From: a virus
Length of the DNA stretch: 21,537 bases
IMG/VR virus record: IMGVR_UViG_3300045135_003619
Coordinates: 1 to 21,537 of that record
Reading direction: 5' to 3' (one strand)
Position numbers and translations under genes: made by a program. Shown one piece after another: positions 1-21,537 of the stretch. A model generated the notes under the pieces. The model worked only from the letters and a program-made list of their open reading frames with translations. It was not told the origin of the DNA and did no database searches. Position 1 is the stretch's first letter; every line of letters starts with the position of its first letter.

Positions 1-1257
1 TTATCCGGCCAGCGTAACCTGCGCCGTTTTCTCGCCCGATCTTTCCTTCAACCCGACCACCACCATCCCCGTCAAATGCCAGACGGCCGCCATCATGATC
101 CCCATATTGAAGGCAAACTCGTTGGCGCAGCTCTGCTTGAAGAACTCCCCCTCGAGGAACATGCAGGATCCCTTGCAGAGCTGAACGACGGGGCATGACA
201 TGCACTCGTCCCGGAATGCAAAGTGCGTCGCGGTATCGAGCGCGATGGCGTCAAAGTCGGCGACATGACCGATCTTGTGCACGCCCTTCGCACCGGTGTT
301 CTGGCAGGTCATGACGTTCCCGCGCAGGTCGACGGCGATGGCGTCGGGGCTGTCCATCCCGCATTTCTGGCCAAGGGCCTCGAGCGGCCGCCGACGTTGA
401 ATGGAGGCATAGAATTCGTTGATGCGCTCGCCAAGGCCGAAGGCATTCGGGTCCTCGACCAGTTCTTCGAAAATCGACCGCGTCAGGCTGTTCAACTCGG
501 CCGGCTCGAACCGCCCTGTGCCGATGGCGGTCGCGGCGTCATAAACATTCACCACGCCCTCGAGCCCGACGAAGATGTCCGGCCCAACCTTTTCGGCGAA
601 CCAGGCCTTGAGGGCCCGAAGGTCGTGATGCTGGCGCGTCAGCACCGCATTGAACCCGGTCTTTTCGGGGCGCTCGGCCAACAGGGTTTGGATCCAGTGT
701 CTCTTGTCAGGATCGTCGAACGGATCCGGCCCGCGCAGATGCTGCCCCGGGCCATCATGAGAGATTGTGATCGCGATGTCATGCGTGGAGATGAAGTCGA
801 GCTTCTCGCGGTCAAGGAGTGATCCGTTGGTGATGATCGAGAAGGTAGCCGTAGGGAACCGCGCCGCCAACGCCGGCACCAACCGCTTGATCTTGCCCCA
901 ATAAAGAAACGGCTCGCCACCCCAGAGCTCGATCTTTTCCGGGGCGTCGGTGATCCAACTGTCGAGCTGAGTCAGGAAGTGCTCGACATCGGCCAGCTTC
1001 GAGACCGTGGCATCGGCGATCTGGAAGGCCTGGCTGCAATAGCTGCAGGCATAATTGCAGGAGAGCCCAAGCTGGATTTTCAACACACGAGGCGCTCGTG
1101 ATTTTCCGATGGGCTTGTCTTTGGCCACGCGCGGTACCGGCGCAAATATCCCCGGTTCTACCGGCAGCGGCAGCCCCTCGCATTCCGATGTGTGCGGGTT
1201 GTAGTGTGCGTGGTGGCGGCTGCCGTCACGCGCTTCCAGTGTCAGATCAAACCACAT
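1..1257 (-). CDS. Radical SAM/SPASM peptide-maturase-like enzyme
   Basis: Complete 418-aa protein ending exactly at the window edge. The radical SAM cluster motif CxxxCxxC is at C67, C71, C74, with the SAM-binding GGEP at 113-116. The C-terminal part carries a full SPASM cysteine set: C299, then a G-x4-C ending at C318, then C352-x2-C355-x5-C361-x3-C365 and a last C377. That is the pattern seen in anaerobic sulfatase-maturating enzymes and RiPP maturases that hold two auxiliary [4Fe-4S] clusters. Members of this family modify ribosomal peptides or proteins, for example by thioether or C-C crosslinks or Cys/Ser oxidation. The start overlaps the stop of the upstream oxygenase (TGATG), so it is translationally coupled. 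No sulfatase is nearby; the obvious local substrate is the Cys-rich protein at 1892-2185, which is an inference. A hydrophobic stretch at about 385-402 is odd but short. The family is secure; the substrate is not known. Confidence 0.9.
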
Positions 1258-1889
1258 CAGTCGAACAGCCTTTCTTCAATCGCCGTTGGCAGGTTGACCC
1301 GGAAGTTCGCAACGACCTGCACATGCGGCGCGCTCCCCTCATAGGGGTGCTGGTTGTGGGGGATATGGGAGGGGAAGAAGACCGAGAGCCCCGGCCGCGG
1401 ATTGACCGAGAAGCCATGGCGGCTCTCATAAGGCAGCCGCCCCTCATCGAAATATCGCGACGGATCCTCGATCACGAAGCGCGGGGTGCCCACGCTATTC
1501 ACCGGCTGGCCCGACCCACTGCCGGTCAGGAAGTGGACGCAGGTCAGATCCCCCTCGCGGCTATCCTTGTGGGTCGAGATGAAGCCGCCTTTCTCGATGA
1601 CGAGGGCGCGGTTTTCGCAATGGCGGGGGTCGAGATATTGGGCCCAAGGGCCAAGCACGGCGCGCGCGCAAGCGAAGAGATGGGCTTTCAGGGTCTGACC
1701 GGCTGCGCTTTTCTCAAGTATGCCGCGCACCCGACGCTCAGCCGCGCTCAGCGGCCTGGCACCCCCTTCCCCGCCCACGGCCGCAATGGCCTCATCCGCT
1801 AGCTGGCGATTGACCTCCCAGCCCACCGGCGCTTCAAAAAAGCTGACATGGGTGGGCCAGAGCGCAAGGTTTGTCTGCTGAACTTGCAT
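1257..1889 (-). CDS. 2OG-Fe(II) oxygenase-like protein (second copy)
   Basis: 210-aa protein counted from the ATG at 1889, two bases after the stop of the Cys-rich gene; an in-frame GTG at 1898 overlapping that stop is an alternative start. The likely facial-triad motif is H107-K-D109, with a distal histidine in the segment FFPSHIPHNQH (H175/H178/H181) and a probable 2-oxoglutarate-binding R197 in VANFRVNL. This matches the prolyl-4-hydroxylase-like branch of the 2OG dioxygenases, which hydroxylate Pro, Asn, Asp or other side chains. The N-terminus (hydrophobic residues, WPTHV, then APVGW) resembles that of the other oxygenase at 2175-2915 (IYPAFV, MPVGF), so the two are probably distant paralogues. 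Its stop overlaps the radical SAM start. Its position directly after the Cys-rich gene suggests a modifying enzyme. Substrate unknown. Confidence 0.78.
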   Translation of the reverse strand: MQVQQTNLALWPTHVSFFEAPVGWEVNRQLADEAIAAVGGEGGARPLSAAERRVRGILEKSAAGQTLKAHLFACARAVLGPWAQYLDPRHCENRALVIEKGGFISTHKDSREGDLTCVHFLTGSGSGQPVNSVGTPRFVIEDPSRYFDEGRLPYESRHGFSVNPRPGLSVFFPSHIPHNQHPYEGSAPHVQVVANFRVNLPTAIEERLFD

Positions 1890-1891
1890 CG

Positions 1892-2185
1892 TCAGCACCG
1901 GCAGGCGCAGTTACAGTTGAAGTAGGCGAGATTGGCTGTGACGGATACGTCTCCAGTAGCGCCGCCCCCTGAGAGGCTCGCGACATAGCAGTTGGCCGTA
2001 CAATTGCAGTTCCCACCCCCGCTTCCACTCACCGCAAAGAAGGGAGATCCCGTGGAGGGCGTGCCATTGGCAACCGTCACGGATGTGATGTCACCGGCCC
2101 CAATCGCGGGCTTGTTGGCAATGCGGGACCAATCCACAAAGCCGCTGTCGTCGATCACGATGGTGGTTCCGACCTTATAGGCCAT
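1892..2185 (-). CDS. Cysteine-rich tail-fibre-like small protein (candidate modified peptide precursor)
   Basis: 97-aa protein. Residues about 17-40 (VDWSRIANKPAIG, GDITSV) look like the repeat of phage tail fibres; compare PWAGITGKP in the 327-aa fibre upstream. A Gly/Ser-rich linker leads into two cysteine clusters: C60, C62, C66 (NCNCTANC) and C91, C93, C95, C97 (FNCNCACRC), the last Cys being the C-terminal residue. Seven cysteines in 38 residues is striking for a phage structural-type protein. The ATG at 2185 overlaps the end of the upstream oxygenase by 11 bases, and the next oxygenase starts 2 bases after its stop, so the precursor sits between two 2OG oxygenases and before a radical SAM/SPASM enzyme. 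I infer a modified tail-tip or fibre component with a leader-like N-terminus. Alternatives are a metal-binding or disulfide-linked tail protein that is not modified. No signal peptide is visible. Confidence 0.8.
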   Translation of the reverse strand: MAYKVGTTIVIDDSGFVDWSRIANKPAIGAGDITSVTVANGTPSTGSPFFAVSGSGGGNCNCTANCYVASLSGGGATGDVSVTANLAYFNCNCACRC

Positions 2186-2915
2186 GGCTGTCTCCTTGCG
2201 CCTGATGGGCCAGGATCTCTGAGAGACCGGCCTTGCAGTGGGAATTTGGGAGATCGAGGGAGCAAAGGACTGGGATGCACATCCGCTCCTCGCCCTCAAA
2301 ATAGGTGCTGTCATGGGGCAGATGCCCCTCGAAGACGAGCATGGAGCCCGTCTTGGGCTCGACCGCGTACCAGCCGCCGACATAGGCGTTCGGGTTGTTG
2401 CAGGGCCACAGCCGCTTGCCGACATTCGCGGGATCGTAAAACCGCACAGCCCCACGATGGAGCGAGGTCTCGGGGCAATCCGCGTCCAGCACGACCCGCG
2501 GGTAATAGGTACAGACGATGTCCGTCTGGATATGGGTGTGGGTGTTGATGCCGACATTTTCCCGTGCGGCACGCCGCTGCCAGAACGTGTCCGACATCAT
2601 GGCGATCTCGCCGGTATGATCATATCCGTAAGCCAACTGCAGGTATTCCCGCACGGCCGCCGCCACCATCTGCGCCAGCACCGCAATCGCCGGGTCCTGC
2701 CGATCCATCAGGAAGTTGTGGCGCAGATGTCCAAGATGGTTGGTCTGATCCCCGACGTTGCGTCCGTCACCCGCATCTTGAATGCGGTTCGCCACAGCGT
2801 CCTCAGCCGCCAGCGCGTACAGGCGGTCATTGAAGCCCACGGGCATGTCCCAATGCTTGTGCAGGACGAAGGCCGGGTAGATCAGCTGGAACTCGGTCGT
2901 GGTCGCGATCTCCAT
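2175..2915 (-). CDS. 2OG-Fe(II) oxygenase, TIGR02466-like
   Basis: 246-aa protein. The reading frame is open further upstream, but the ATG at 2915 gives the family-like N-terminus and overlaps the upstream stop (TGATG). The Fe-binding region is NTHTHIQTD (H126, H128, D132), followed by a beta strand ending TYYP as in PF13759/TIGR02466 proteins. The distal part has VFEGHLPHDS (H198/H201) and R211, the expected second His and the 2OG-binding Arg. TIGR02466-type putative 2OG oxygenases are common in marine phages, often beside structural genes, and their substrates are mostly unknown. Here it is followed immediately by the Cys-rich protein and preceded by collagen-like fibres, either of which could be hydroxylated. 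Enzyme family fairly secure; function inferred. Confidence 0.85.
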   Translation of the reverse strand: MEIATTTEFQLIYPAFVLHKHWDMPVGFNDRLYALAAEDAVANRIQDAGDGRNVGDQTNHLGHLRHNFLMDRQDPAIAVLAQMVAAAVREYLQLAYGYDHTGEIAMMSDTFWQRRAARENVGINTHTHIQTDIVCTYYPRVVLDADCPETSLHRGAVRFYDPANVGKRLWPCNNPNAYVGGWYAVEPKTGSMLVFEGHLPHDSTYFEGEERMCIPVLCSLDLPNSHCKAGLSEILAHQAQGDSHGL

Positions 2916-3823
2916 CACACCACCTCCAGGATGATCTTGCCGATCGCGGTGTAATGCTCGGTGTTGATCTTGACTGCTATCTGATCTCCCGGACTGAGCC
3001 CCAAGGCCTCGATAGCAAAGCTGCCCACTCCGCTCGCATCGGTCCTCAGCCGCCGTTTTGGCAGATAGCCGGCGTCGCTTTCGAGCTTTAGCACCAGCGC
3101 GTGTGCGCAGGACGCGCCATCCACATTCCAACTGAGCGCCACAGGTACTTGGGCACGGCCGCCTGCAGGAACGGTAACAGATTCCTCCGTTGCCACCGCG
3201 TGGAAATAGAACTGCTTGAACCACTGCCCGTTATTCGGGATTGTCGCGTCATCGATCCGGCCCGCAATGGTGGTCCCGTTCAAGAGGATGGGGTCCTGAT
3301 CGCAGAGGATCTCGATCCGGGCCGAGGAGAGCGGCCCCTTGATCGGCATGAAGATCACGAGGGCGTTGGCCGCTTGCACACGTGCGCGGTGGCGGAAAGA
3401 GAGATCAACTTTTTCGCGGGCGGATTGGGCAAAGCGATTACGCCAGGGCAGCGGAAAGCCCTGTGCGTCTGTCATAATGTCGATGAGCGCATAATCGGTG
3501 ATTTCATCATGGCCGCGCATGCCGTCGAGGAAGACATAGGACCGGCCTTTATAGATCCCGCCATGGGTACAGCCTGGAAGGTCGGGCACAAAAAGCCCAT
3601 TGCCGCGCATATCAACGAAGCCAGCGCCCCGGTCCTGATCAAAGGGCGTGGCGAGTTCTGCCGAGAGTTCTGCCCATTCCATGGCGCCAACACTGTTGCG
3701 CAGGCCCTCGCCAGCCCCGCAGCGCGCAAAGACGGCGATCCCGGCATAGGTCTCTTGGACATCGACAGCGTAATGAAGTGGCGTGCCCGTGTTATAGATG
3801 ACATGCAGTCCGGTCTCGATCAT
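2915..3823 (-). CDS. Hypothetical protein of the fibre/modification operon
   Basis: 302-aa protein that I do not recognise as a named family. The N-terminal about 200 residues have many aromatic and Gly/Asp residues (for example [15 protein letters not shown]) and suggest a beta-rich fold that might bind carbohydrate or ligand. The last about 80 residues (from [13 protein letters not shown] on) look like an Ig- or invasin-like beta sandwich. There is no signal peptide or membrane helix. The ATG at 3823 overlaps the upstream fibre stop by four bases (ATGA), and its own stop overlaps the oxygenase start. Its position between the S74 fibre and the modifying enzymes suggests a virion appendage protein, or a partner of the fibre, rather than a host gene. 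Confidence 0.75.
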
Positions 3824-4770
3824 GGCATGGTCCTTTTCAGCTGATCAACCTCCTGAGCGAGGTCCTTGATGGCCTCTACGAGGAGGCCCACGAGATTGCC
3901 GTAGGCCAGACGCAGCACGCCTTCGGCCTCAACGACGGCCTCTGGCGCGACGGCCTGCACCTCTTGTGCAATGAGACCCATCTGCCGCGCGTCGCTGCCC
4001 GCCATGGTGAAGGTGACGCCGCTCAGCGCCTGCACCTTGGCCAGCGCATCTGCGATAGGCGCGATATCGGACTTGAGCCGTGCGTCCGACGAGGAGACGA
4101 AGTTCGGTGCGGTCACCGTGCCAGAGAAGGTCGCCCCGCTCAGGAGTGCGAAGGCACTGGCATGACTGCCATCAAGAAGATCGGCATCAATTCCCGACCC
4201 AGAGCCATCGACGGTTACCAGCTTGGCACGTACCTGCGCGGCCGTGTCGGGAGACCCATCCGCCCCTGCGGGGCCTTGTGGACCCGTAGCCCCGGTGGCA
4301 CCCGTGGGACCCGCAGGTCCCTGCGGTCCTGTTGGGCCGGTGGCGCCAGTATCACCCTTGGCTCCGGTCGCACCTGTTGCCCCGGTAGCACCTTTCAGGT
4401 TTACGTAAGCACCCCAGGTCGATCCGTTGAAAAACCGCAGACTGGTGCCAGACCATTGATGCGCTGGTGTTGGTCCTGTGGCGCCCGACGAACCCTGAGG
4501 ACCTGTTGCGCCTATGTCACCTTTCGGGCCTGTTGCCCCCGTTGGACCCGTGGGACCCTGAGGCCCTGTTGGCCCGGTCGCGCCTTGAGGACCGGCCGGT
4601 CCTTGCGGTCCAGTTTGTCCGAGCTCGATCACGGTTTCGGCGCCAGAGACACGCTTCAGAAAAAGCTTTCCGTCGGTGACATTCACTGCCAACTCACCAG
4701 CAGCGAGTTGTGCCGTGCTGGGTACCCGGCCGGCCACGGTCGTTCGTTTTACCAGAACGGTATTTGCCAT
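3820..4770 (-). CDS. Collagen-like tail fibre with C-terminal S74 intramolecular chaperone
   Basis: 316-aa protein. Residues 1-50 form an anchor-like domain shared with the next fibre upstream (MANTxxxKR start, then AAGELAVN). Gly-X-Y triplets run at 53-100 and 127-172, flanking a 25-residue non-collagen insert ([17 protein letters not shown]). From about 218 comes a peptidase S74/endosialidase chaperone domain with SSSDARLK (S226-K233), the usual site where such domains cleave themselves off after trimer assembly, and a C-terminal coiled coil. Prolines are mostly in the X position of the triplets, not the Y position hydroxylated in animal collagen. Likely a trimeric receptor-binding or side fibre. 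The S74 domain is closely related to that in the 218-aa fibre at 9008-9664. Confidence 0.88.
4255..4614 (-). repeat. Collagen-type Gly-X-Y repeats
   Basis: Two blocks, 4471-4614 and 4255-4392, of Gly-X-Y triplets in the 316-aa fibre, separated by a folded insert. Triplets are mainly GPQ, GPT, GAT and GPA. Confidence 0.8.
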
Positions 4771-4772
4771 GA

Positions 4773-5756
4773 TCAGAAGGTCCCACCGTCAAGGGTGATC
4801 CCGTTGATCGACCCACCGGTAATCGCGACATTGCTGGAGGCTTGCGTGGCCATGGACCCCAGCCCGAGGTTCGACCGCGACGTCGCTTTGTTCGGGAGGT
4901 CTGAGAGGTTCGATGCTGCGGAAAGCTTGCCAGCTAGCGCATTGGTCACGGTCGTTGCGAAGTTGGGATCATCGCCGAGGGCTGCGGCCAACTCGTTAAG
5001 CGTATCCATGGCGCCGGGAGCGGCATCAATAAGCGCACCGATGGCGGCGGCGACAAAAGCTGTGGTCGCGATCTGCGTCGTGTTTGTGCCGGCCGTTGCA
5101 GTGGGGGCCGTCGGCGATCCTGTCAGTGCAGGTGATGCAAGAGGTGCCTTTGCATCCAACGCCGTCTGGAGCCCCGTGATTTGCGCGATCGAATGGCTGT
5201 GGCTGGAGGGCGTAAAGCTCGTGGGTTTGCCGGTAATCCCGGCCCAAGGTGCGGCATCGGCAACCTCTGCGGCATCCACCTTGCCATCGTTGTCCGTATC
5301 ATAGGTGGATTTTGCCATGTCGCCCGCGCCAAAGCCGGCAATGGCGTCATTGACGAAGGCCGTTGTTGCAATCTGTGTTGAGTTCGTGCCCGCGACCGCC
5401 GTCGGCGCCGTGGGCGATCCCGTGAAGCTTGGTGACGCCAAAGGTGCTTTCGTCGACAGCAGGCCGTCGACCTGGGACTTGCGAACAAGGTCGGTCCCGC
5501 CGCTGGCATCTTGTCCGGATTTCGGGACCAGGGAGAAGGTCTTGGACCCGGCGACGGTCTGGGTGCCAGTCAGCGCAACAAACCCACCGCTGCCGGCAAC
5601 CGGCACGATGGAAGTCGCATTGCCGCTGCCGTCGTCGCCCTTGCCGACATACACCGTGTTGTCGACCTCGTTATGGGCAAGCTCGCCTGATTTCAGCGCA
5701 GCGGGCGCACCCGCCACGCCAGAGACGCGGCGTTTGAGCTGGATGGTATTGGCCAT
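4773..5756 (-). CDS. Tail fibre protein with phage tail repeats and a calcium-loop motif
   Basis: 327-aa protein. The N-terminal 40 residues resemble the anchor of the collagen-like fibre ([20 protein letters not shown]). Two near-identical 33-residue repeats occur at 103-135 and 203-235 ([18 protein letters not shown], then [10 protein letters not shown]), typical of phage tail fibre repeats. Between them lies [12 protein letters not shown] (153-164), which fits a 12-residue EF-hand/dockerin-type calcium loop with acidic residues at positions 1, 3, 5, 9 and 12. The C-terminus ends [11 protein letters not shown]. It has no S74 domain of its own. The stop falls two bases before the collagen fibre start, and its own ATG overlaps the upstream stop. 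Probably a structural fibre subunit that pairs with the neighbouring fibres. Confidence 0.85.
5052..5450 (-). repeat. Two 33-residue tail-fibre repeats
   Basis: Copies at 5352-5450 and 5052-5150 inside the 327-aa fibre encode almost the same 33 residues (differences at about four positions), with diverged DNA, which points to an old duplication under selection for protein sequence. Confidence 0.7.
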
Positions 5757-5962
5757 CAGAAAAATCCTCCATTGATGGGGGCGTCGGTGGGCAGGATCGT
5801 GATGCCCGGATCCCCTTGATCTCCCTTGTCGCCTTGTGGGCCTGTCGCGCCTTGTGGCCCTGGCTGGCCGCCAAGCCGGATGAGGAAAGGTCCCGAGACC
5901 ACGCGGACCTTGATCGGCGCGGTGATGGTGATCGGACCTGTCTGCCGGATCGCTTCACTCAT
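5756..5962 (-). CDS. Short collagen-like protein
   Basis: 68-aa protein: an N-terminal beta-type segment (ITITAPIKVRVVSGPF), then about seven Gly-X-Y triplets in residues 31-53 (from GGQPGPQGATG on), and a C-terminal tail ending INGGFF. That ending resembles the ends of the adjacent fibre (GGTF), suggesting a shared junction or a domain cut from a longer fibre. The start overlaps the upstream stop by four bases (ATGA), and the stop overlaps the next start (TGATG). Probably a small trimeric fibre connector; function inferred. Confidence 0.72.
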   Translation of the reverse strand: MSEAIRQTGPITITAPIKVRVVSGPFLIRLGGQPGPQGATGPQGDKGDQGDPGITILPTDAPINGGFF

Positions 5963-6312
5963 GGGCTCAGCCCTCGCGTCACCGGCAACATCACGGGGAT
6001 TTCGAGAAGGAAGCCCAAGTGAAGATCAGGCTCGAGATCGGTGCGCACCAAATCCAACACCGCGCGCCCGGGCGAGAGCCCTGCGGTTTGGGAGGGCGTC
6101 AGAGACAGTTCCAACACGGTCGTGCTGATGTGCTCTATCCCGCCATCAGCGCTGGAAAGCTCCGCCAAGAGCGTTGAATCACTCGGTTTGAGGCGCAAAT
6201 GGCCCACATAGCGGGCCCCTTCGGCAAAGACCGGTGCCTCAGCCTCAATTTGCAGCCGCCAGGCGTAGCCGATCAAGATCACGGGACCTTCATGAAGCTG
6301 GGGGCTGGTCAT
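5959..6312 (-). CDS. Hypothetical phage protein, first gene of the fibre operon
   Basis: 117-aa protein, predicted mostly beta strand, with no signal peptide or membrane helix. Not recognised as a named family; proteins of this size often sit just before collagen-like fibre genes in phages, so a small tail-associated beta domain is likely. The ATG at 6312 is preceded by a GAGG ribosome site. It is the first gene of the nine-gene leftward run and is divergent from the UPF0149 gene, so the promoter should lie in the 82-base gap 6313-6394. Confidence 0.7.
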   Translation of the reverse strand: MTSPQLHEGPVILIGYAWRLQIEAEAPVFAEGARYVGHLRLKPSDSTLLAELSSADGGIEHISTTVLELSLTPSQTAGLSPGRAVLDLVRTDLEPDLHLGFLLEIPVMLPVTRGLSP

Positions 6313-6394
6313 GGTATAGCCTCGGGTACAGTTGGGTCAGATTGCGAAGGGATCAGTCGAGGGTTAGGAACGGCAAAGACCAACGGAGATTCCC
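6313..6394. other. Divergent intergenic region
   Basis: 82-base gap between the leftward fibre/modification operon and the rightward UPF0149 gene. It must hold translation signals for both: GAGG for the left gene and CGGAG about eight bases before the right ATG. Promoters for one or both transcripts are expected here, but I could not pick out a convincing -35/-10 pair. Confidence 0.4.
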
Positions 6395-7078
6395 ATGCGC
6401 CAGTCGGACCAGGACCTCGATCGCCTCAGCGAATTGCTCTTCGCACTGCCGCAGGAGAATTTCCCAATGACGTTGAGCGAACTCGATGGCTATTTGACCG
6501 GCGTTCTGGCCTGCCCAGAGATGATCCCACCCTCGGACTGGCTCCCCCATGTTTGGGGCGAAACAGCCGAGGCGAACTTTCCAGATCTGAAGAGCGCAGA
6601 GGAAACAATCGGCGCCGTTATGGCGCATTACAACTCGATCGCCTCAACACTGAGCGAGACACCTTATCTTGAGCCAATTTACGAGGTAGATCCCAATAGC
6701 GACGAGACATTGTGGGAGCCGTGGGTCGATGGGTTTACCCGTGCCATGCGGTTGCGCTCCGAGGCTTGGGAAGCACTTCTCGACCGTGCAGACGAAGAGA
6801 CGCGCTCCTCGATGATTTTTTTGATGGCGTTGCAAGACATTTACGAGGGTAAGAGCACATTCAGCGAAGATGAGATTGACGAGATTGATCTTGAAGCGCC
6901 CGATCTCGTCCCAAACTGCGTTGCGGCTATTTTGTTTGAGTCCCGCCCAGAGCTTGGGGCCACAGCCATGCCCAACTTACCGGACGCTCCGTTTCGCGCG
7001 GCACCACGTCCCGGGCGCAATGATCCATGCCCCTGCGGCTCTGGGCACAAATACAAACACTGCTGCGGTAAGAATTGA
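6395..7078 (+). CDS. UPF0149 (YecA-like) protein with SEC-C zinc motif
   Basis: 227-aa protein. The body matches the UPF0149/YecA family: MTLSELDGYLTG near residue 25, then a helical region with conserved Trp and Glu. The C-terminus is a SEC-C zinc motif, NDPCPCGSG then KHCC (C212, C214, C223, C224), like the zinc tail of SecA, known to bind zinc in SecA and related proteins. The start is supported by CGGAG upstream. It is one of only two plus-strand genes and sits between the spanins and the fibre operon, so it is likely a cargo (moron) gene with its own promoter. Base composition is a little lower in GC than the structural genes. Role in the phage unknown; a protein-quality or ribosome-linked role is a family-based guess. 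Confidence 0.85.
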   Translation: MRQSDQDLDRLSELLFALPQENFPMTLSELDGYLTGVLACPEMIPPSDWLPHVWGETAEANFPDLKSAEETIGAVMAHYNSIASTLSETPYLEPIYEVDPNSDETLWEPWVDGFTRAMRLRSEAWEALLDRADEETRSSMIFLMALQDIYEGKSTFSEDEIDEIDLEAPDLVPNCVAAILFESRPELGATAMPNLPDAPFRAAPRPGRNDPCPCGSGHKYKHCCGKN

Positions 7079-9766: not shown

Positions 9767-12313
9767 TCACGCGACCTCGTCGGCATAGAGCCGCAATTGA
9801 CTGACGATGGGCGTGTAGGACGCATCCTTCGTCGTAAGAAATGCCCGTGCTTCGACTGCGCGGGCTTCGATTTCATGATTGTCGAGCCGGCCCCAGGGAC
9901 CCCAGTTCGGCGAAGCGGCAGGATCGTCATCGGTTTCGCGGATCTCGAAGAGCACGTCGATTTCTGCACCAGCCGATCCGTCAAAGTCGGCCCATGTGTC
10001 CATGAGCGCCGTGCGCGCGTCGATCCGGTCATTAAGCGCCAGGGCGGCAACGCCGATTTCTGAGCGGAGCCGAACGCGTTTCACTGCGCCAAGATCAAGC
10101 CCGGCAGCAAAGGCGTACTGCCCCTCCATCGTGCTGACCTGTGTCACGCCATTCGCGGTCGCCGTGGCCAGCGTCAGCGTCGTGCCTGTGACCTGCAGTC
10201 CGGATTTCGGGCCGAGGAAGCCGGGATCGGCCTGCAGGAAGTCCAAGGTCGAGAAGGCCAGCACCTGCGCACCCTTGGTCGAGACGCGGGTTTCTGGACC
10301 GGCACGACCGCCGCTGTCCTCGGCGCGCACCAGATAGGTCCCGGGTTTGAGCGGCACGACAGCAATCGCCTCGCCACCCGAGACCCGGTCCATCGAATAG
10401 CTGTCAGCCCAAGTGGCCGTCGCTTCTTTCGAATGGCGGATCACGATGTTGCCGCCGACGCGAACATCGGGATCGGCCGAGCGGGTCCATTTCAGGATGG
10501 CGAGCCCACCTGCCGTTTGCAGCGTCACATTCTCGAGTTGTGCTGGCGGTGCCGTCAGCCCGAGGATTTCGACCGAGGTTTCCTGCCAGGGCGATGAAAC
10601 GCCCAAGACCGAGATCGCTTTGACGCGGAAAGCCCAAGCCCCCGGCGCGATGTCGCGGATTTCCAGTGTGGTGCCGTCGGTGCGGCCATAATCAATCCAG
10701 TCTGAAGCCCCCGTTATTTTGCCTTGCAGCTGATAGGCCGCGACAAATCCCGAGGGTGCGGCTTCCCAGCTGATCTTCGCCAGAACCTTCAGCCCGCCCC
10801 CGTCCCGGGTGACATAGAGGTCCTCGGTGACCTGCGGTGCGCCGGGTGCCGGAATGTCATGAGGGTTGGGTAGCGCCGTGCGTGGGGCGGCTGCGTAGAT
10901 CTGTTCTTCAGACGCTGACCAGTCGTAGACCAGGGGCGAGGTCTCGCGCAGGGCCAACTCGGGCAACAAAAGAGCGCCATCGCCCGAGGCCGTAAGGTCA
11001 AGGCTCACCCCATGGACCTCGAAAGGTTTGGCGGCAAAGCCCCACCGAGCGTAGGAAAGCGTTACTACATCCCCGACGGTGGCCGCCCAGGCGGAAAGCT
11101 TGCCCGACAAGCGCACTGTCATTTGCCGCCGTGCACGTTCAAGCTCAATCTTGGCCAGTCGCTGCGCCATGGCAGCCGAGATCGTAAACGGCAGCGAGAT
11201 GTCGCGCCACTTTTGTTCGCCACCGTCCTCAGCCACATAGACAGCGCTCGAATAGGCCGGGAAGTCATCCGGTTGCCAATCGTTCTCAGGGCTGACGAAC
11301 TGCCCGCGCACGCCGTTGAAGTTTGACGACATCGTCACGCGCGTGGCCAAGGTAAGCCCGCCTTCGCGCACATGGTCTGACGTCAGCGCCACATCAGGCG
11401 CGCGCCATGCCCCTGCATGGATGCGCCAGGACCCGCTCGAGAAGGCGCAGCGGCCGGCGAAGGACGAGAGCATTCCTTCGATGATCGTCTTCGGGACCTC
11501 CGAGAGGGTGATCACCCCATTGCAGGCATAGCGCGGCTCTGAACCACCGCCCGCAAGGGGAACAGCCTCGTCACAGATATTGGCGGCCTCCACGAGGGAC
11601 ATCTCGTCAATCCCGTCGGGCTGCCCGATCCGCGCGCCAATGCCCCAGGTCGGGTTGGCCATATAGTCAGCAAGGCAAAGGGCGGGATTTTCCGAATACC
11701 CCGCAGTTTGGGTTCGCGGGTCCCAGATGTCGTCCTTGCCCTCGATGTCCACCGTGATGTTCGGGATCCCGCCCGGGAAGGCATCCTGGTCATAGGTGAG
11801 CCGCAGCCGAATGGCCGCACAGCCCCGGAGCCGATGGTTCTCAGTCCATTTGTCCGGCAGAGCTGCCTTGAGGCCTGCGAAAGCGGTCTGGTTGGTGGCG
11901 CCCAGTTTCTTTTCGACGAGGACCTTGCCGGCCCAACGGCCTTGGGCCACGCCGTCCGCGTCGATGGCCATCTCGCCTTCGAAGTAAATCGCTCCAATTG
12001 ATTTCACCTGATGCGTGGCCAGCACGATCACCAGATCGAGGAACTTGTTGTCTGCTCCAGAGGAGTGCAGGAAGACGATGACCCCGCCCTTGCGCGTGCG
12101 GCCATAGACGAGATCACGCGGCACCACAGGCTCGCGGATCGTCACCGTCCGCGGCTGCATCGTAGTCTGCGGTTTCGGCATCAAGGCCTGAGCCGCAGTG
12201 GACAGAAGCAGTGTCCCGCCAATCCGCAAGAGCGCAGCGCCTACTCCGCCAGCAGCCAAAACGCCGCTGATCGCCCCCGCGATCGCGGTGACGGCTGTCA
12301 CGATGAAGGGCAT
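9767..12313 (-). CDS. gpJ-like host specificity / tail tip protein
   Basis: 848-aa protein. Residues 1-50 are hydrophobic with a GG-rich segment, then DLVYGRTRKGGVIVF and the central-tail-hub-like domain (GIGARIGQPDGIDEMS, LYV and EVP segments). Residues about 530-700 look like fibronectin type III repeats (ISWEAAPSGFVAAYQL, ILKWTRSADPDVRVGG). The C-terminal part ends in a beta-rich region. This is the gpJ/phage-tail_3-like central fibre or baseplate hub that contacts the receptor. Shorter than lambda gpJ (1132 aa). It follows the gpK-like gene by 15 bases, as in lambda, but no gpI homologue lies between. Confidence 0.87.
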   Translation of the reverse strand: MPFIVTAVTAIAGAISGVLAAGGVGAALLRIGGTLLLSTAAQALMPKPQTTMQPRTVTIREPVVPRDLVYGRTRKGGVIVFLHSSGADNKFLDLVIVLATHQVKSIGAIYFEGEMAIDADGVAQGRWAGKVLVEKKLGATNQTAFAGLKAALPDKWTENHRLRGCAAIRLRLTYDQDAFPGGIPNITVDIEGKDDIWDPRTQTAGYSENPALCLADYMANPTWGIGARIGQPDGIDEMSLVEAANICDEAVPLAGGGSEPRYACNGVITLSEVPKTIIEGMLSSFAGRCAFSSGSWRIHAGAWRAPDVALTSDHVREGGLTLATRVTMSSNFNGVRGQFVSPENDWQPDDFPAYSSAVYVAEDGGEQKWRDISLPFTISAAMAQRLAKIELERARRQMTVRLSGKLSAWAATVGDVVTLSYARWGFAAKPFEVHGVSLDLTASGDGALLLPELALRETSPLVYDWSASEEQIYAAAPRTALPNPHDIPAPGAPQVTEDLYVTRDGGGLKVLAKISWEAAPSGFVAAYQLQGKITGASDWIDYGRTDGTTLEIRDIAPGAWAFRVKAISVLGVSSPWQETSVEILGLTAPPAQLENVTLQTAGGLAILKWTRSADPDVRVGGNIVIRHSKEATATWADSYSMDRVSGGEAIAVVPLKPGTYLVRAEDSGGRAGPETRVSTKGAQVLAFSTLDFLQADPGFLGPKSGLQVTGTTLTLATATANGVTQVSTMEGQYAFAAGLDLGAVKRVRLRSEIGVAALALNDRIDARTALMDTWADFDGSAGAEIDVLFEIRETDDDPAASPNWGPWGRLDNHEIEARAVEARAFLTTKDASYTPIVSQLRLYADEVA

Positions 12314-17521: not shown

Positions 17522-18456
17522 GCATCACGCTCATTGACCAACGTGACAGTGCACATACGGCCCGCGACGGGGTCGCTGGCCGCCTGCCAATCGAAGGTTG
17601 CTTGCACACCCTGTGGACCGGAGATCTCCACACGTGGCCGCGGAAGATAGACGGCATGGGCTGTCAGCGTCAGGCTTTCGCCCGTTGCCAGCGTGTAGGA
17701 AAACTCAAGCTCGCAGGCCTCACCATTGATCGCCTGTTGCACCAGCGTCTGGTCCGCGAAGCGCACAACGACATTGCCCGTGAGCGCCGCGATCGATGGA
17801 TCCGCCCCGTCAATCTTGCCATCTGCGCGGATTGTCTCGATGCGGTCGAGATTGTTGGCATAGGTCAGATCGGCGGAGACAACATTGCCAATGTTCGCGC
17901 CATTCCGCGTGATCGCTCCGTTGAAATGCCCAAAGCGCTTCAGCGCGATGTTAGCCGGTGTACCTACCGCGCTTGTCGTGGCGATGGCCTCGCCCTGTGC
18001 CACGATACTGGCCGTTGCCGTCAGCAGCCCTGAGCGCGCCATCTGCCAGTTGATGCTGTCCACCATGCAGCCGGAATACATCGCATAGCGCGGCACCTCT
18101 GGCATGCCGGTCTCGACTGAGAAGCTGGGCAGCGCCCAGTTTCCGGAGCGGAACTCATGCGTGTAGGGGGCATCGGCACCCGTTGTGGTGGGCGCGCCAA
18201 AAGCAGCCTTCAGCCAAAAGCCAAACGCCTCGGCATCGATCGGGATCACCACGTCGCCATCCGCCGTCACCGCATCCTTGATCGGCGCCTGAGGATCACG
18301 GCCATAGCCTAAGAGTTCTGAGGTCTGCAGCGGTTGCTCAGCCCCCAGCGTCGTGCTGGCAAAAGGCATCTTGGTGTAGCCGCTCGCAGGCGGCGTGCCG
18401 TATGTCGTCTCGAACGCAAGCGCCATCTGCGCCCGTGCCCCTTGGGCTCGTGCCAT
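17515..18456 (-). CDS. Major tail tube protein (gpV-like)
   Basis: 313-aa beta-rich protein with the N-terminal ALAFETTYGTPPASGYTKMP and C-terminal region of the phage tail tube family (PF18906-like). Residues about 80-150 contain a long loop with many Pro/Gly, as in other tube proteins. Forms the hexameric rings of the tail tube. Upstream of the chaperone pair, as in lambda-like phages. Confidence 0.88.
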   Translation of the reverse strand: MARAQGARAQMALAFETTYGTPPASGYTKMPFASTTLGAEQPLQTSELLGYGRDPQAPIKDAVTADGDVVIPIDAEAFGFWLKAAFGAPTTTGADAPYTHEFRSGNWALPSFSVETGMPEVPRYAMYSGCMVDSINWQMARSGLLTATASIVAQGEAIATTSAVGTPANIALKRFGHFNGAITRNGANIGNVVSADLTYANNLDRIETIRADGKIDGADPSIAALTGNVVVRFADQTLVQQAINGEACELEFSYTLATGESLTLTAHAVYLPRPRVEISGPQGVQATFDWQAASDPVAGRMCTVTLVNERDAY

Positions 18457-18480
18457 GGTGTTCTCCTCGGGTTGTAGGGG

Positions 18481-18900
18481 TCAGGCCAGCGGGTCGGCCG
18501 TGGAATAGTGCAAGACGACCGGAATAACCGCTGCCTTCAGGCTTGCCGCGCCCTCGACAGGCAGATCGACAGGCTGCGGGGCTTTAGCCTCAACCCATTC
18601 GCAGAGGCTGCCTAGCGTTCGGTCGGCGGCGAGCACCGTGCCGATGCTGGCGGTCAGCGTGTCGAATAGGACATCACGGTCAGGGCCTTGAACGACCGCC
18701 TCGATTTCGGCGCGGTGCTGGTAGTGATAGGCGAGCGGCGATAGCGTAACCTCGGGCTCCCCCGGTTCACCGTCTCGCAGGATCAGCAGGCCCTCGGTCG
18801 GCACGCGATCAGGCAGTACGTCGCCGCGCAGGGCCGTTGCGGGCAACGCCGAAAGCCGCGCGTGCAGCGCGGCGAGGATGGTTTCGCGGGGGGTGGGCAT
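18481..18900 (-). CDS. Tail terminator / gpU-like protein
   Basis: 139-aa protein in the gpU position, before the tail tube. The N-terminal helix (MPTPRETILAALHARLSAL) followed by beta strands and HYQHRAEIEAVV fits tail terminator proteins that cap the tube. Proteins of this size in Rhodobacterales phages have also been given unrelated enzyme names, which I do not accept here. Assignment is by position and fold type. Confidence 0.68.
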   Translation of the reverse strand: MPTPRETILAALHARLSALPATALRGDVLPDRVPTEGLLILRDGEPGEPEVTLSPLAYHYQHRAEIEAVVQGPDRDVLFDTLTASIGTVLAADRTLGSLCEWVEAKAPQPVDLPVEGAASLKAAVIPVVLHYSTADPLA

Positions 18901-18911
18901 TTTAGATCCAG

Positions 18912-19415
18912 CTAAACGGAGCCTTCGTCGAGGCGCCTTTTAAGTTCCATCAATTTTGGCGACGTATCGCCCAACTTTGGTTTTGAGTTCTCGAATTCAG
19001 TCTGGATCTCTTCTAGGCGTGACATTACTACTCGATTAACCAAATCGCGAAATTTTGTTTCGGTAAGCTGATGACCTGCACCACCTTCGCCTGCTAATTT
19101 AGGTCGACTTTCGCTACGTTGGGCCTTGATCGCCGCCACCGCAAACCAAACCAGTCTCGGAGTCCATTTCTCTCCAATAGCGGTCTTGATCAAAAGTTTG
19201 TTAAGCAGGCGACTGATTTCAGATGCCGTTCCAATACCATTCTTCTTTGCCGCCTCAATCACAGTTTTTATTCGCACCACTTGCTCTGGCTTCCCATACT
19301 TCAAGAAATCCAGATGCGGCTTGTCTACACTCGCAATCTTCGGCGGATGCTTCTTGTAGATATCCTGCATTTTAACTGGCGGCTCACTGGAACGCTTCTG
19401 CGCGCCACGCTGCAT
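18912..19415 (-). CDS. Inserted gene of unknown function with recombinase-like DNA-binding segment
   Basis: 167 aa from the ATG at 19415, which has an AAAGGTG ribosome site; an upstream TTG at 19454 is possible (180 aa). AT-richer than the neighbours. Lysine-rich. The segment TASEISRLLNKL, then GEKWTPRLVWF, resembles the helix-turn-helix-like recombinase domain of serine recombinases, but the catalytic domain is absent. Sits between the Z-like and U-like tail genes where lambda has none, so it is a likely moron or acquired gene. DNA-binding is inferred. Confidence 0.62.
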   Translation of the reverse strand: MQRGAQKRSSEPPVKMQDIYKKHPPKIASVDKPHLDFLKYGKPEQVVRIKTVIEAAKKNGIGTASEISRLLNKLLIKTAIGEKWTPRLVWFAVAAIKAQRSESRPKLAGEGGAGHQLTETKFRDLVNRVVMSRLEEIQTEFENSKPKLGDTSPKLMELKRRLDEGSV

Positions 19416-19589
19416 TGATCGCACCTTTGCTTTACTCAAAGTGTACCCCGCCAATTCAGTTCCCGTTCACCCGCACCGTACCCGAAAAAGCGAGCGGTTG
19501 CGACTTTTTGTTAGCTTAAAGAATATCATGTAGCTCGTCGCACAGCTGCATTCGTAGGACAATTAATAGACGTTGGACGCGCCCCTGCC

Positions 19590-20216
19590 TTAGCGTCCCT
19601 CTACCCAGCTAGCCACGATTAGCCCCGGAATCGCCGCCTGCGCGTGCTCTGCGTCCCGTGCCAGATCAAGCCGTTTCGCCAGCTTCACCTGCGGCACCAA
19701 CAGAAAAATCGGCACCGTCGCCCTGCCGCGTCCCGTCTTGGACCGTGACGCCACACCAAGCCCGCGACTGTTCAACCGCCCCTCGGCCACCAAGAGGCTC
19801 GGGCCGCGGCGCCGATAGACGAACCGTAACCGCATCCCGCGGCGGCGCTCCCATTCCCCGGGCGTGATACGCCCGCCTTTCAGGCCCTTGCCGGCAGCCG
19901 CAGTCGGGATCGCGAGCCAGAACCCGTCTTTCGACCGGATCAGCGGTCCAGCGTCATGCGCACCGACAATCACTGGGGCCTTCGACCAGACCAACGCGGC
20001 AGCTTTCAAGCTGTCACCAGATTTTGGATAGGTCTGGCTTCGGATCGAGTTCGCCAGCCGCCGCCCGAGCCCCGCTCGCGTGATCTGCCCGCGCCAAGCG
20101 TATTTTAGGCCCGTTCCCGCCTCGCGCATGGCCGTTGTCACAGCCTTCTCGCCAGCTTTGATCTCTGCTGCCATGACGGCAACCAGGTCCGGGGTGATGT
20201 CGAGGCCCAATCTCAT
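19590..20216 (-). CDS. DUF6441 family tail-completion protein (gpZ-like position)
   Basis: 208-aa basic protein recognisable as DUF6441 (MRLGLDITPDLV, GLKYAWRGQITRAGLG, GRRLANSIR). The second half contains many Arg and a long beta region (RLRFVYRRRGPSLL). In lambda the gpZ gene holds this place and acts in joining tail to head. Its start overlaps the stop of the head-tail joining gene by four bases. Confidence 0.8.
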   Translation of the reverse strand: MRLGLDITPDLVAVMAAEIKAGEKAVTTAMREAGTGLKYAWRGQITRAGLGRRLANSIRSQTYPKSGDSLKAAALVWSKAPVIVGAHDAGPLIRSKDGFWLAIPTAAAGKGLKGGRITPGEWERRRGMRLRFVYRRRGPSLLVAEGRLNSRGLGVASRSKTGRGRATVPIFLLVPQVKLAKRLDLARDAEHAQAAIPGLIVASWVEGR

Positions 20217-20524: not shown

Positions 20525-21537
20525 CAGGTGCGCTTGGCCGAGCGCAGCACCTGCGGCCGGGTGCAGATCGGCAGCGGGTTGCTTTCGATCTCAAGGCGCA
20601 CCCATTCATCCCGGTCGCGGTCGGGGATCATGCGCGCATAGAGCGGCAGACCCAGTGTGTTGACCGTCTCAAACGTGTCGGCGGGGGCGTAGTAGATCTC
20701 AAACAGCCCCTCGACGCCTTCAGGATAGAAATACGCCTTGTCAGTCGGCACACCGAAGCCAAGCCCGCCCCGATAGCGTCGGAAAGTGATGCCGCCAAAG
20801 CTGACCTCTTCGCCCACGCGGCCGCGCAGATCTGCCGCCGCGGCGGTATTCAGATAGGTCTCGCGCACCTCCTTGTGGGCCACGAGATCGGCAAAGAAGG
20901 CCGAGCCACATTCGGCGCGCAACTGGACCTGACCAGCTGCCAGCCCGCCGAGGCTGTCCTCGACGCTTTCGATCAGCGCCCGGCAGCGTTTGCGCAGGGC
21001 ACCTGATGCAGGCGACTGGTTATCGAGATCGAAATCAACCTCAGCCGCAGGCGTGATGCCGAACTCTGTATAGTAGTTGATGACCGTGGCGCCGTCCTTG
21101 GGGTCCTTCACCACGCCCTGGATGCCGTTGAAGAGGTGGAATTCAAACGTGGCTTCAGCGTCATTCCGAAGCCGCGCCATCTTGCGGGCCACCTCAGTTT
21201 GCACCTGCTGCACCGCCGTTTCCGATCTGAATTCGCGGATGCCTTGGATCTCGGCGGCCCAGAGCACGTCCTGCTTCTTGAACTGGCGGCAGACGAAAGC
21301 ACGCATATCGCGGCGCTCAGGCACCTGTTGCTCATAGGCCGAACCCCGTTCCGAGAACGGGATCAGCGACAGTGTGCCATCGCGGCTTTCGATCATGACG
21401 GTGCGCTGGCGCACGCCGCGCGAGCCAAAGAGGCCCGCACCCGACAGGATCGCCGGTTTGAAGGGGATGTTTTCCAGAGCCCGGGTGAGCTCGATGATGC
21501 TGAAGGCGTCGCCCTCGAAGATGTCCATGGTTGCCAT
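20524..21537 (-). CDS. Major capsid protein (gpE-like)
   Basis: 337-aa protein complete in the window, starting at its right edge. Matches the lambda gpE family (PF03864) in length (341 in lambda) and motifs: IFEGDAFSIIELTRAL near the start, a GRVGEEVSFGGITFRRYRGG loop in the second half, and YFYPEGVEGLFEIYYAPAD. Forms the icosahedral shell. Decoration protein and protease genes would lie further right, outside the window. Confidence 0.92.
   Translation of the reverse strand: MATMDIFEGDAFSIIELTRALENIPFKPAILSGAGLFGSRGVRQRTVMIESRDGTLSLIPFSERGSAYEQQVPERRDMRAFVCRQFKKQDVLWAAEIQGIREFRSETAVQQVQTEVARKMARLRNDAEATFEFHLFNGIQGVVKDPKDGATVINYYTEFGITPAAEVDFDLDNQSPASGALRKRCRALIESVEDSLGGLAAGQVQLRAECGSAFFADLVAHKEVRETYLNTAAAADLRGRVGEEVSFGGITFRRYRGGLGFGVPTDKAYFYPEGVEGLFEIYYAPADTFETVNTLGLPLYARMIPDRDRDEWVRLEIESNPLPICTRPQVLRSAKRT

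Follow-up and report, generated by a model that had tools for sequence, protein, structure and literature searches.

What does a radical S-adenosylmethionine (SAM) enzyme do among the tail genes of a bacterial virus? The IMG/VR viral record IMGVR_UViG_3300045135_003619, analysed here in its entirety (21,537 bases, perhaps a fragment; hereafter the window), raises this question. Its minus strand carries siphovirus tail genes, including a J-like tail-tip protein and two tail fibres, and at its low end four abutting genes of the same strand encode a 2-oxoglutarate (2OG)-Fe(II) oxygenase (2OG-A), a Cys-rich protein of 97 amino acids (aa), another such oxygenase (2OG-B) and a radical SAM/SPASM enzyme (Table 1). 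The first two overlap by 11 nt, a 2-nt gap separates the 97-aa stop from the 2OG-B start, and 2OG-B overlaps the enzyme gene by 1 nt. An earlier note on this DNA had described these overlapping or near-abutting frames, with the oxygenases flanking the 97-aa gene and the SPASM enzyme after them, and the coordinates of the open reading frames (ORFs) agree with it. The note saw in them the precursor-plus-maturase logic of ribosomally synthesised and post-translationally modified peptides (RiPPs), applied to a virion part. Our comparisons centre this logic on a terminal array of X-Cys dipeptides and its radical SAM partner: a radical enzyme that would rework the short cysteine-repeat tip of a tail-fibre protein appears to be encoded by many bacterial viruses themselves, and this would be a building route not described so far.

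The 97-aa protein holds seven Cys within its last 38 residues, as the earlier note had counted. Eight other large ORFs of the window contain 13 Cys in 3,300 residues, and given this background the binomial probability of at least seven Cys in 38 residues is about 2e-10. Relatives of the protein are encoded at 27 loci; a tblastn search of phage records with the 97-aa sequence gave no match. In an alignment of 18 relatives the invariant residues are confined to the N-terminal 29 residues (MAYKVGxTIVIxDxG...W.RI...P..G) and to the last eight (NCNCxCxC), and the middle of the protein, the inner Cys group included, varies. Where the DNA extends 1.5 kb or more past the gene, which is the case at 20 loci, the enzyme gene is always present (five loci with less and two with cut relatives were left out of this count); the Cys-rich gene is thus found with the SPASM enzyme, as had been proposed, rather than usually without it.

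Starting from the enzyme, we assembled 162 loci: 80 viral (the best 80 of 150 relatives), 80 from bacterial genomes (the best 80 of 217) and two named phages. Clustering at 90% identity gave 98 clusters, of which 81 with at least 4 kb of upstream sequence were kept and 17 with less were left out. An array was scored when at least three consecutive X-Cys units occurred near the end of an upstream ORF on the same strand, or just before a Hint-like motif. By this rule 65 of the 81 clusters have an upstream array, against 5/81 on the antisense strand and 0/59 downstream on the same strand. The 65 arrays comprise 336 units, with Asn as X in 197 of them, Ala in 68 and Asp in 39. The arrays (62 C-terminal, 9 of the Hint type) are carried by otherwise unrelated proteins with ORFs of up to 726 aa; the best 80 viral relatives alone include very different upstream proteins with X-Cys ends such as NCNCNCNCNC, NCACACDCACACSK and NCNCDCNCDCNCACND.

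The reverse comparison disregarded the enzyme. Viral contigs were scanned for stretches that translate to C[ND]C[ND]C[ND]C[ND]C, a pattern stricter than the window's own array, which would not match it. The figures given here hold among the matches listed, a sample of 120 stretches. Terminal arrays were those at most 20 residues from the end of their ORF and those that precede an S74 or Hint motif; 86 of the 120 are of this kind. An ORF of the enzyme family lies in the fetched stretch for 71 of these 86 versus 1 of the 34 other matches (Fisher p = 8e-17, a value inflated by near copies), the single non-terminal case (L123; loci are cited by such numbers) being cut short by its contig end. The enzyme ORF is on the same strand as the terminal array in 71/71 and downstream of it in 70/71. 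The 86 arrays represent 56 distinct 30-aa tails, 46 of them with the enzyme, and when only evaluable arrays are considered (enzyme found, or at least 2.5 kb downstream) the proportion is 71/74. Of the 15 terminal arrays lacking the enzyme, 12 are followed by less than 2.5 kb of DNA. L137, which is among the 12, shares its contig with L068, which has the enzyme. The remaining three (L122, L159, L215) look like chance repeats by eye. Because the enzyme profile also picks up radical SAM families at a greater distance (E-values from 1e-8 to <1e-150), some of the array partners are not phrog_1802, the family of the window enzyme, itself.

Judged by sequence, the array-enzyme pairing is real, widespread and more general than the 97-aa gene of the window. 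A precursor gene adjoining and co-occurring with its maturase gene is also the usual arrangement of RiPP systems. The co-occurrence counts (65/81 and 71/86) support the precursor-maturase logic proposed for a virion part, within which crosslinks and oxidation stay conditional. The proposed role of the Cys-rich gene as precursor would fall to its array; a single small protein is not the defining element, as the array occurs on unrelated proteins of far greater length.

Other Cys repeats were noticed in passing. Arrays of the Asn/Asp/Ala-Cys type are absent from the first 40 kb of Campylobacter phage CP220 and from 40 kb of Erwinia phage EarlPhillipIV, which have other Cys repeats instead. In EarlPhillipIV (L312), minus-strand ORFs at 21473-21859 and 21063-21461, the second overlapping an annotated gene in another frame, encode CSGx-type repeats of period four close to two radical SAM genes (17676-19911), which suggests another type of Cys-repeat substrate with another radical SAM family. 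Period-three repeats (CxxCxxC) occur in CP220 (L311:24206-24577), L114, L127 and L154. A radical SAM ORF is near in the latter three, and the nearest one seen in CP220 is about 7 kb away. One L114/L127 protein with such repeats also ends in NCNCDCNCNC.

What kind of protein carries the array? Tail or tail-fibre PHROG matches were obtained for eight of the nine carriers scanned, L133 having none. Among the eight is the L092 carrier, which ends in the array; it combines collagen repeats and a phage tail repeat with the N-terminal domain of T7 tail fibres (1.4e-20). T7-type fibres attach to the virion by the N-terminus and their C-terminus is distal, so the L092 array is expected at the fibre tip. 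Collagen repeats, S74 chaperones and T7-type attachment domains, all known from phage fibres, are parts used by the window and its relatives. The fibre array of Achromobacter phages JWF and 2-1, NCNCDCNCNCSC or NCNCDCNCSC, runs directly into a Hom_end-associated Hint domain (Pfam E-value 5.3e-12 in phage 2-1). The array stands directly before Hom_end_hint above the Pfam cut-off in L109 and L058. The same layout is found with scores below the cut-off in L054 (where the array is irregular), L095, L282, L298 and L299, and by eye in L091 (no Pfam match) and L301. Two residues beyond the array NCNCDCNCDC of L134 comes a Peptidase_S74 domain (22.5 bits versus a cut-off of 22). Hint and S74 domains are types known for self-cleavage, after which the mature C-terminus could be formed by the array or lie close to it; most other carriers end in the array directly.

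The window enzyme exceeds the curated cut-offs of both Radical_SAM (Pfam, 35.8 bits versus 29.5) and SPASM (TIGR04085, 30.2 versus 27), and matches phrog_1802 over residues 49-386 (183.6 bits, E-value = 1.4e-53). C67, C71 and the seven SPASM Cys (C299, C318, C352, C355, C361, C365, C377) are invariant in 32 aligned relatives, and C74 is conserved in at least 90% of them. The structure model is confident (predicted local distance difference test, pLDDT, 91.0). Among solved structures its fold comes closest to those of CteB (Z = 23.1 over 351 residues, root-mean-square deviation 3.9), ChlB (22.1), the anaerobic sulfatase-maturating enzyme anSME (20.8) and TigE (17.8). None of the specific families claims the enzyme: the best NCBIfam match, the PapB model NF047865, gives 66.6 bits, far under its cut-off of 340, and the SCIFF maturase (TIGR03974) and anSME (TIGR03942) models give 32.3 bits against 425 and 37.5 against 349.45. 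With the ranthipeptide maturases CteB (SCIFF) and PapB the enzyme shares its radical SAM/SPASM architecture and, presumably, a Cys-rich ribosomal substrate. It differs from them in scoring far below those cut-offs, and their substrates are small peptides with CX3D or six-Cys motifs, whereas here they would be fibre-operon proteins with X-Cys arrays. The likeness to anSME would be that of a SPASM enzyme modifying Cys in a full-size protein. Profile alignment reveals an extra Cys after the first SPASM Cys of anSME, a fourth auxiliary Cys that is missing in CteB, TigE and the window enzyme family. A passage of PMC8326336 describes a site left open at one of the auxiliary clusters of CteB, where a substrate Cys can bind, and full ligation of the clusters in anSME. 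Together with the missing anSME-type Cys this favours a Cys-binding, thioether-type chemistry, though the invariant D302 might act as a ligand and alter the picture.

Relatives of the enzyme also occur outside viral contigs. Some in bacterial genome contigs, for example of Thalassovita autumnalis, are close (up to 93% identity), hence the phage of the window is probably temperate. A single genome, that of Thalassobacter stenotrophicus CECT 5294, has four enzyme loci (L240, L241, L242 and L292, one partial at a contig end), and several related prophages may coexist there. Six bacterial enzymes from Ramlibacter, Variovorax and one gammaproteobacterium (L248, L249, L252, L254, L255, L259) form a supported clade that shares its half of the tree with the window enzyme (support 99; the midpoint root serves for drawing only). 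In the Ramlibacter locus L249 a YcaO + nitroreductase fusion (4441-6759, identified by Pfam) adjoins the enzyme relative, together with a small candidate precursor (6775-6969); a similar ORF was seen by eye in L255. YcaO with nitroreductase is a hallmark of azole-forming RiPP clusters (thiazole/oxazole-modified microcins and their like), and this connects the phage enzyme, through its ancestry, with RiPP maturation. These clusters differ from the phage loci in having no X-Cys array by our rule (6/6 clusters), and L249 and L255 lie, by eye, outside any phage tail operon.

Three further observations concern the enzyme. In L053 (1718-3016) a Ser replaces the third Cys of the radical SAM CX3CX2C motif, so that this copy may be inactive or contain a sequencing error. 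A second radical SAM-like ORF of about 1 kb, possibly a partner, lies directly upstream of the main enzyme in L059, L079, L092, L094, L138, L162 and L281. A search of viral contigs with the L092 enzyme matched only itself and one near relative.

The earlier note had counted oxidising tailoring enzymes in the set. Every one of the 24 loci in the clade of the window has both oxygenases, but only 46 of the 81 clusters have a 2OG relative at most 4.5 kb from the enzyme. The oxygenases are thus optional and accessory, the core being the array and the radical SAM enzyme, and a reading with them as core was discarded on the same count. Their family assignment comes from the profile matches of Table 1, since both miss the PF13759 cut-off of 27 (2OG-A just, with 25.9; 2OG-B clearly, with 16.3). 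In 24/24 relatives (L029 numbering) 2OG-B has invariant H110, D112, H181, H184 and R200, and 2OG-A has H127, H129, D133, H202 and R212. We take H110, D112, H181 or H184, and R200 in 2OG-B, and H127, H129 or D133, H202 and R212 in 2OG-A, to be the ligands, so that both presumably hold the conserved iron and 2OG ligand set of the 2OG-Fe(II) superfamily. A role as collagen prolyl hydroxylases of the adjoining fibre was considered and dropped: collagen-like repeats occur at 9 of 46 loci with a 2OG relative versus 4 of 35 without (p = 0.38), a comparison that is weak either way.

Table 1. Features of the window, with the evidence for each
Feature	Position	Strand	Evidence
Radical SAM/SPASM enzyme (phrog_1802), 418 aa, presumed maturase of the array	1..1257	-	profile scores, invariant Cys, structure model
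2OG-B, 2OG-Fe(II) oxygenase, 210 aa, accessory	1257..1889	-	phrog_81 3.3e-6; invariant His/Asp/Arg
97-aa array protein, presumed substrate	1892..2185	-	27 relatives; enzyme co-occurrence 20/20
C-terminal array NCNCACRC, residues 90-97 of the 97-aa protein	1895..1918	-	N90, C91, N92, C93, C95, C97 invariant in 18 aligned relatives
Inner Cys group NCNCTANC, residues 59-66 of the 97-aa protein, variable	1988..2011	-	reduced or absent in part of the relatives
Conserved N-terminal stretch, residues 1-26 of the 97-aa protein, possible recognition or assembly part	2108..2185	-	16/26 residues invariant, 18 relatives
2OG-A, 2OG-Fe(II) oxygenase, 246 aa, accessory	2175..2915	-	phrog_81 5.1e-10; TIGR02466 2.8e-8 (below its cut-off)
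302-aa protein of unknown function, frequent neighbour	2915..3823	-	relatives upstream of the enzyme in 54/81 clusters
Tail fibre with collagen repeats and Peptidase_S74 chaperone, operon context	3820..4770	-	PF01391 62.8 bits, PF13884 58.9 bits; phrog tail families
Tail fibre, operon context	4773..5756	-	phrog_2631 tail fiber protein 2.2e-53
J-like tail-tip protein, operon context	9767..12313	-	phrog_5616 4.5e-103; phrog_31 central tail fiber J 2.7e-78

Sequence establishes that array and enzyme go together, that the array is C-terminal and lies in a fibre context, and to which family the enzyme belongs. On these grounds the array is very probably the substrate of the radical SAM enzyme, and we favour the view that the pair forms a phage-encoded, RiPP-like maturation module for a tail-fibre or tail-tip protein. 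The enzyme would recognise a protein of the fibre operon and act on its C-terminal [N/D/A]-Cys dipeptide array, the array thiols most likely binding at an open auxiliary [4Fe-4S] cluster. Cys sulfur would then be joined to carbon of nearby Asn, Asp or Ala residues to give thioether links; a thioether and some other change appear about equally probable as the product. Passages of two papers offer precedents for a thioether to Asn in the small peptide NxxcA (PMC8326336) and to Asn and Ala in ruminococcin C (PMC8172795). The outcome would be a compact, rigid, protease-resistant tip on the part that meets the host, perhaps engaging a receptor, and a role of the modified tip in host contact seems reasonably probable. 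In the window clade the two oxygenases would add oxidation, probably hydroxylation of the same protein, and in other phages a Hint or S74 domain after the array would be cleaved off to leave the array terminal. The full scenario, in which unrelated phages repeatedly place an [Asn/Asp/Ala]-Cys array at the distal fibre end, a radical SAM/SPASM enzyme makes a multi-thioether tip of it and Hint or S74 self-cleavage exposes the finished end, falls a little short of an even chance in our judgement.

Several observations weigh against such a module. Sixteen of the 81 enzyme clusters have no array by the rule; six of these are the bacterial clade, and L095 has an array with a Hint domain that the rule missed. 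L087 ends in the short CDCANCSMK, and L057, L096, L102, L105, L250, L266, L289 and L308 are unexplained. Within the window, the last array unit (RC) falls outside the Asn/Asp/Ala preference, the 97-aa protein found no PHROG match in the profile search, and its structure model is unreliable (pLDDT 52.8). Some PHROG matches of the carriers rest on collagen repeats (L120, L147). In the enzyme, the invariant D302 could fill the open auxiliary-cluster site, and no full RiPP recognition element, nor a clear one as in a CteB/PapB-like maturase, is visible in its model, where residues 1-50 form three short strands and no helices (no dedicated model of this element was run). An Asp-to-Asn change in PapA stops the PapB reaction, as a passage of PMC8172795 reports, which makes PapB a poor model for Asn-rich arrays.

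The chemistry might instead be that of anSME, oxidising the array Cys to formylglycine or another oxidised residue, and an aldehyde-rich tip could bond amines of the host surface. The fold (Z = 20.8) and the profile match (E-value = 9e-16) of anSME are both among the nearest, and the JWF enzyme is annotated as anaerobic sulfatase-maturating. We nevertheless regard this chemistry as unlikely, given the TIGR03942 score so far below its cut-off, the absence from the window enzyme family, as from CteB, of the Cys that completes the anSME auxiliary cluster, and an array unlike the CxPxR motif of sulfatases. It is similarly improbable that the array is a thiolate site for iron, zinc or a cluster, or a set of disulfides, at the tip, with the enzyme acting elsewhere or only assisting. 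Dense alternating Cys would suit metal binding, and some phage tips do hold metal ions; such a site leaves unexplained why the enzyme accompanies the array in 71 of the 86 terminal matches listed from the enzyme-blind scan, on unrelated carriers.

Two further explanations detach the enzyme from the virion. The earlier note had also considered an exported peptide made by a prophage, that is, a free RiPP (bacteriocin or signal) derived from the 97-aa protein. A small Cys-rich protein with a maturase and tailoring oxygenases would fit this, as would the enzyme relative in the YcaO + nitroreductase cluster of L249. The cassette genes sit in a tail operon, however, and arrays elsewhere end long fibres, one of which (L092) bears a virion-attachment domain; together with the tail-fibre matches of other carriers, this rules out export as the principal explanation and makes it very improbable at all. 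A metabolic benefit has been proposed, in a passage of PMC2853527, for the 11 radical SAM proteins of CP220, which are not shown to be of the phrog_1802-type family. By analogy the radical SAM gene could be an auxiliary metabolic gene that aids the host cell and is unrelated to the array, but the tight two-way association of array and enzyme with its matched controls renders this hardly credible. A maturation module for a fibre or tail-tip protein thus remains the reading that we prefer.

In the open-access literature we found no description of a fibre Cys array with a dedicated radical SAM enzyme, subscription papers and preprints being outside this search and priority not proven by it; nor did the text NCNCNC occur there together with radical SAM. 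Phage radical SAM genes have been counted among Fe-S genes (a passage of PMC5332604). If the proposed module is real in its chemistry, the array carriers would make up a first class of virion proteins modified by radical SAM enzymes and would solve host contact by chemical means. The parts with which phages meet their hosts would then draw on peptide-crosslinking reactions that have mostly been associated with small natural products. A set of phage radical SAM genes that has lacked an explanation would be accounted for, and a new enzyme-tag pair working at the C-terminus of a large folded protein would become available.

Two neighbourhood observations may be added. At the array-less locus L289, from a Sulfuritalea metagenome-assembled genome, the ORFs upstream of the enzyme at 6968 resemble, by eye, an ABC exporter and its membrane-fusion partner. 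In the window, the frequent 302-aa neighbour gave no match in Pfam and PHROG profile searches. A 227-aa ORF on the plus strand (6395-7078), opposed to the tail operon, is possibly a cargo gene, and its C-terminal end is presumably a SEC-C type zinc motif.

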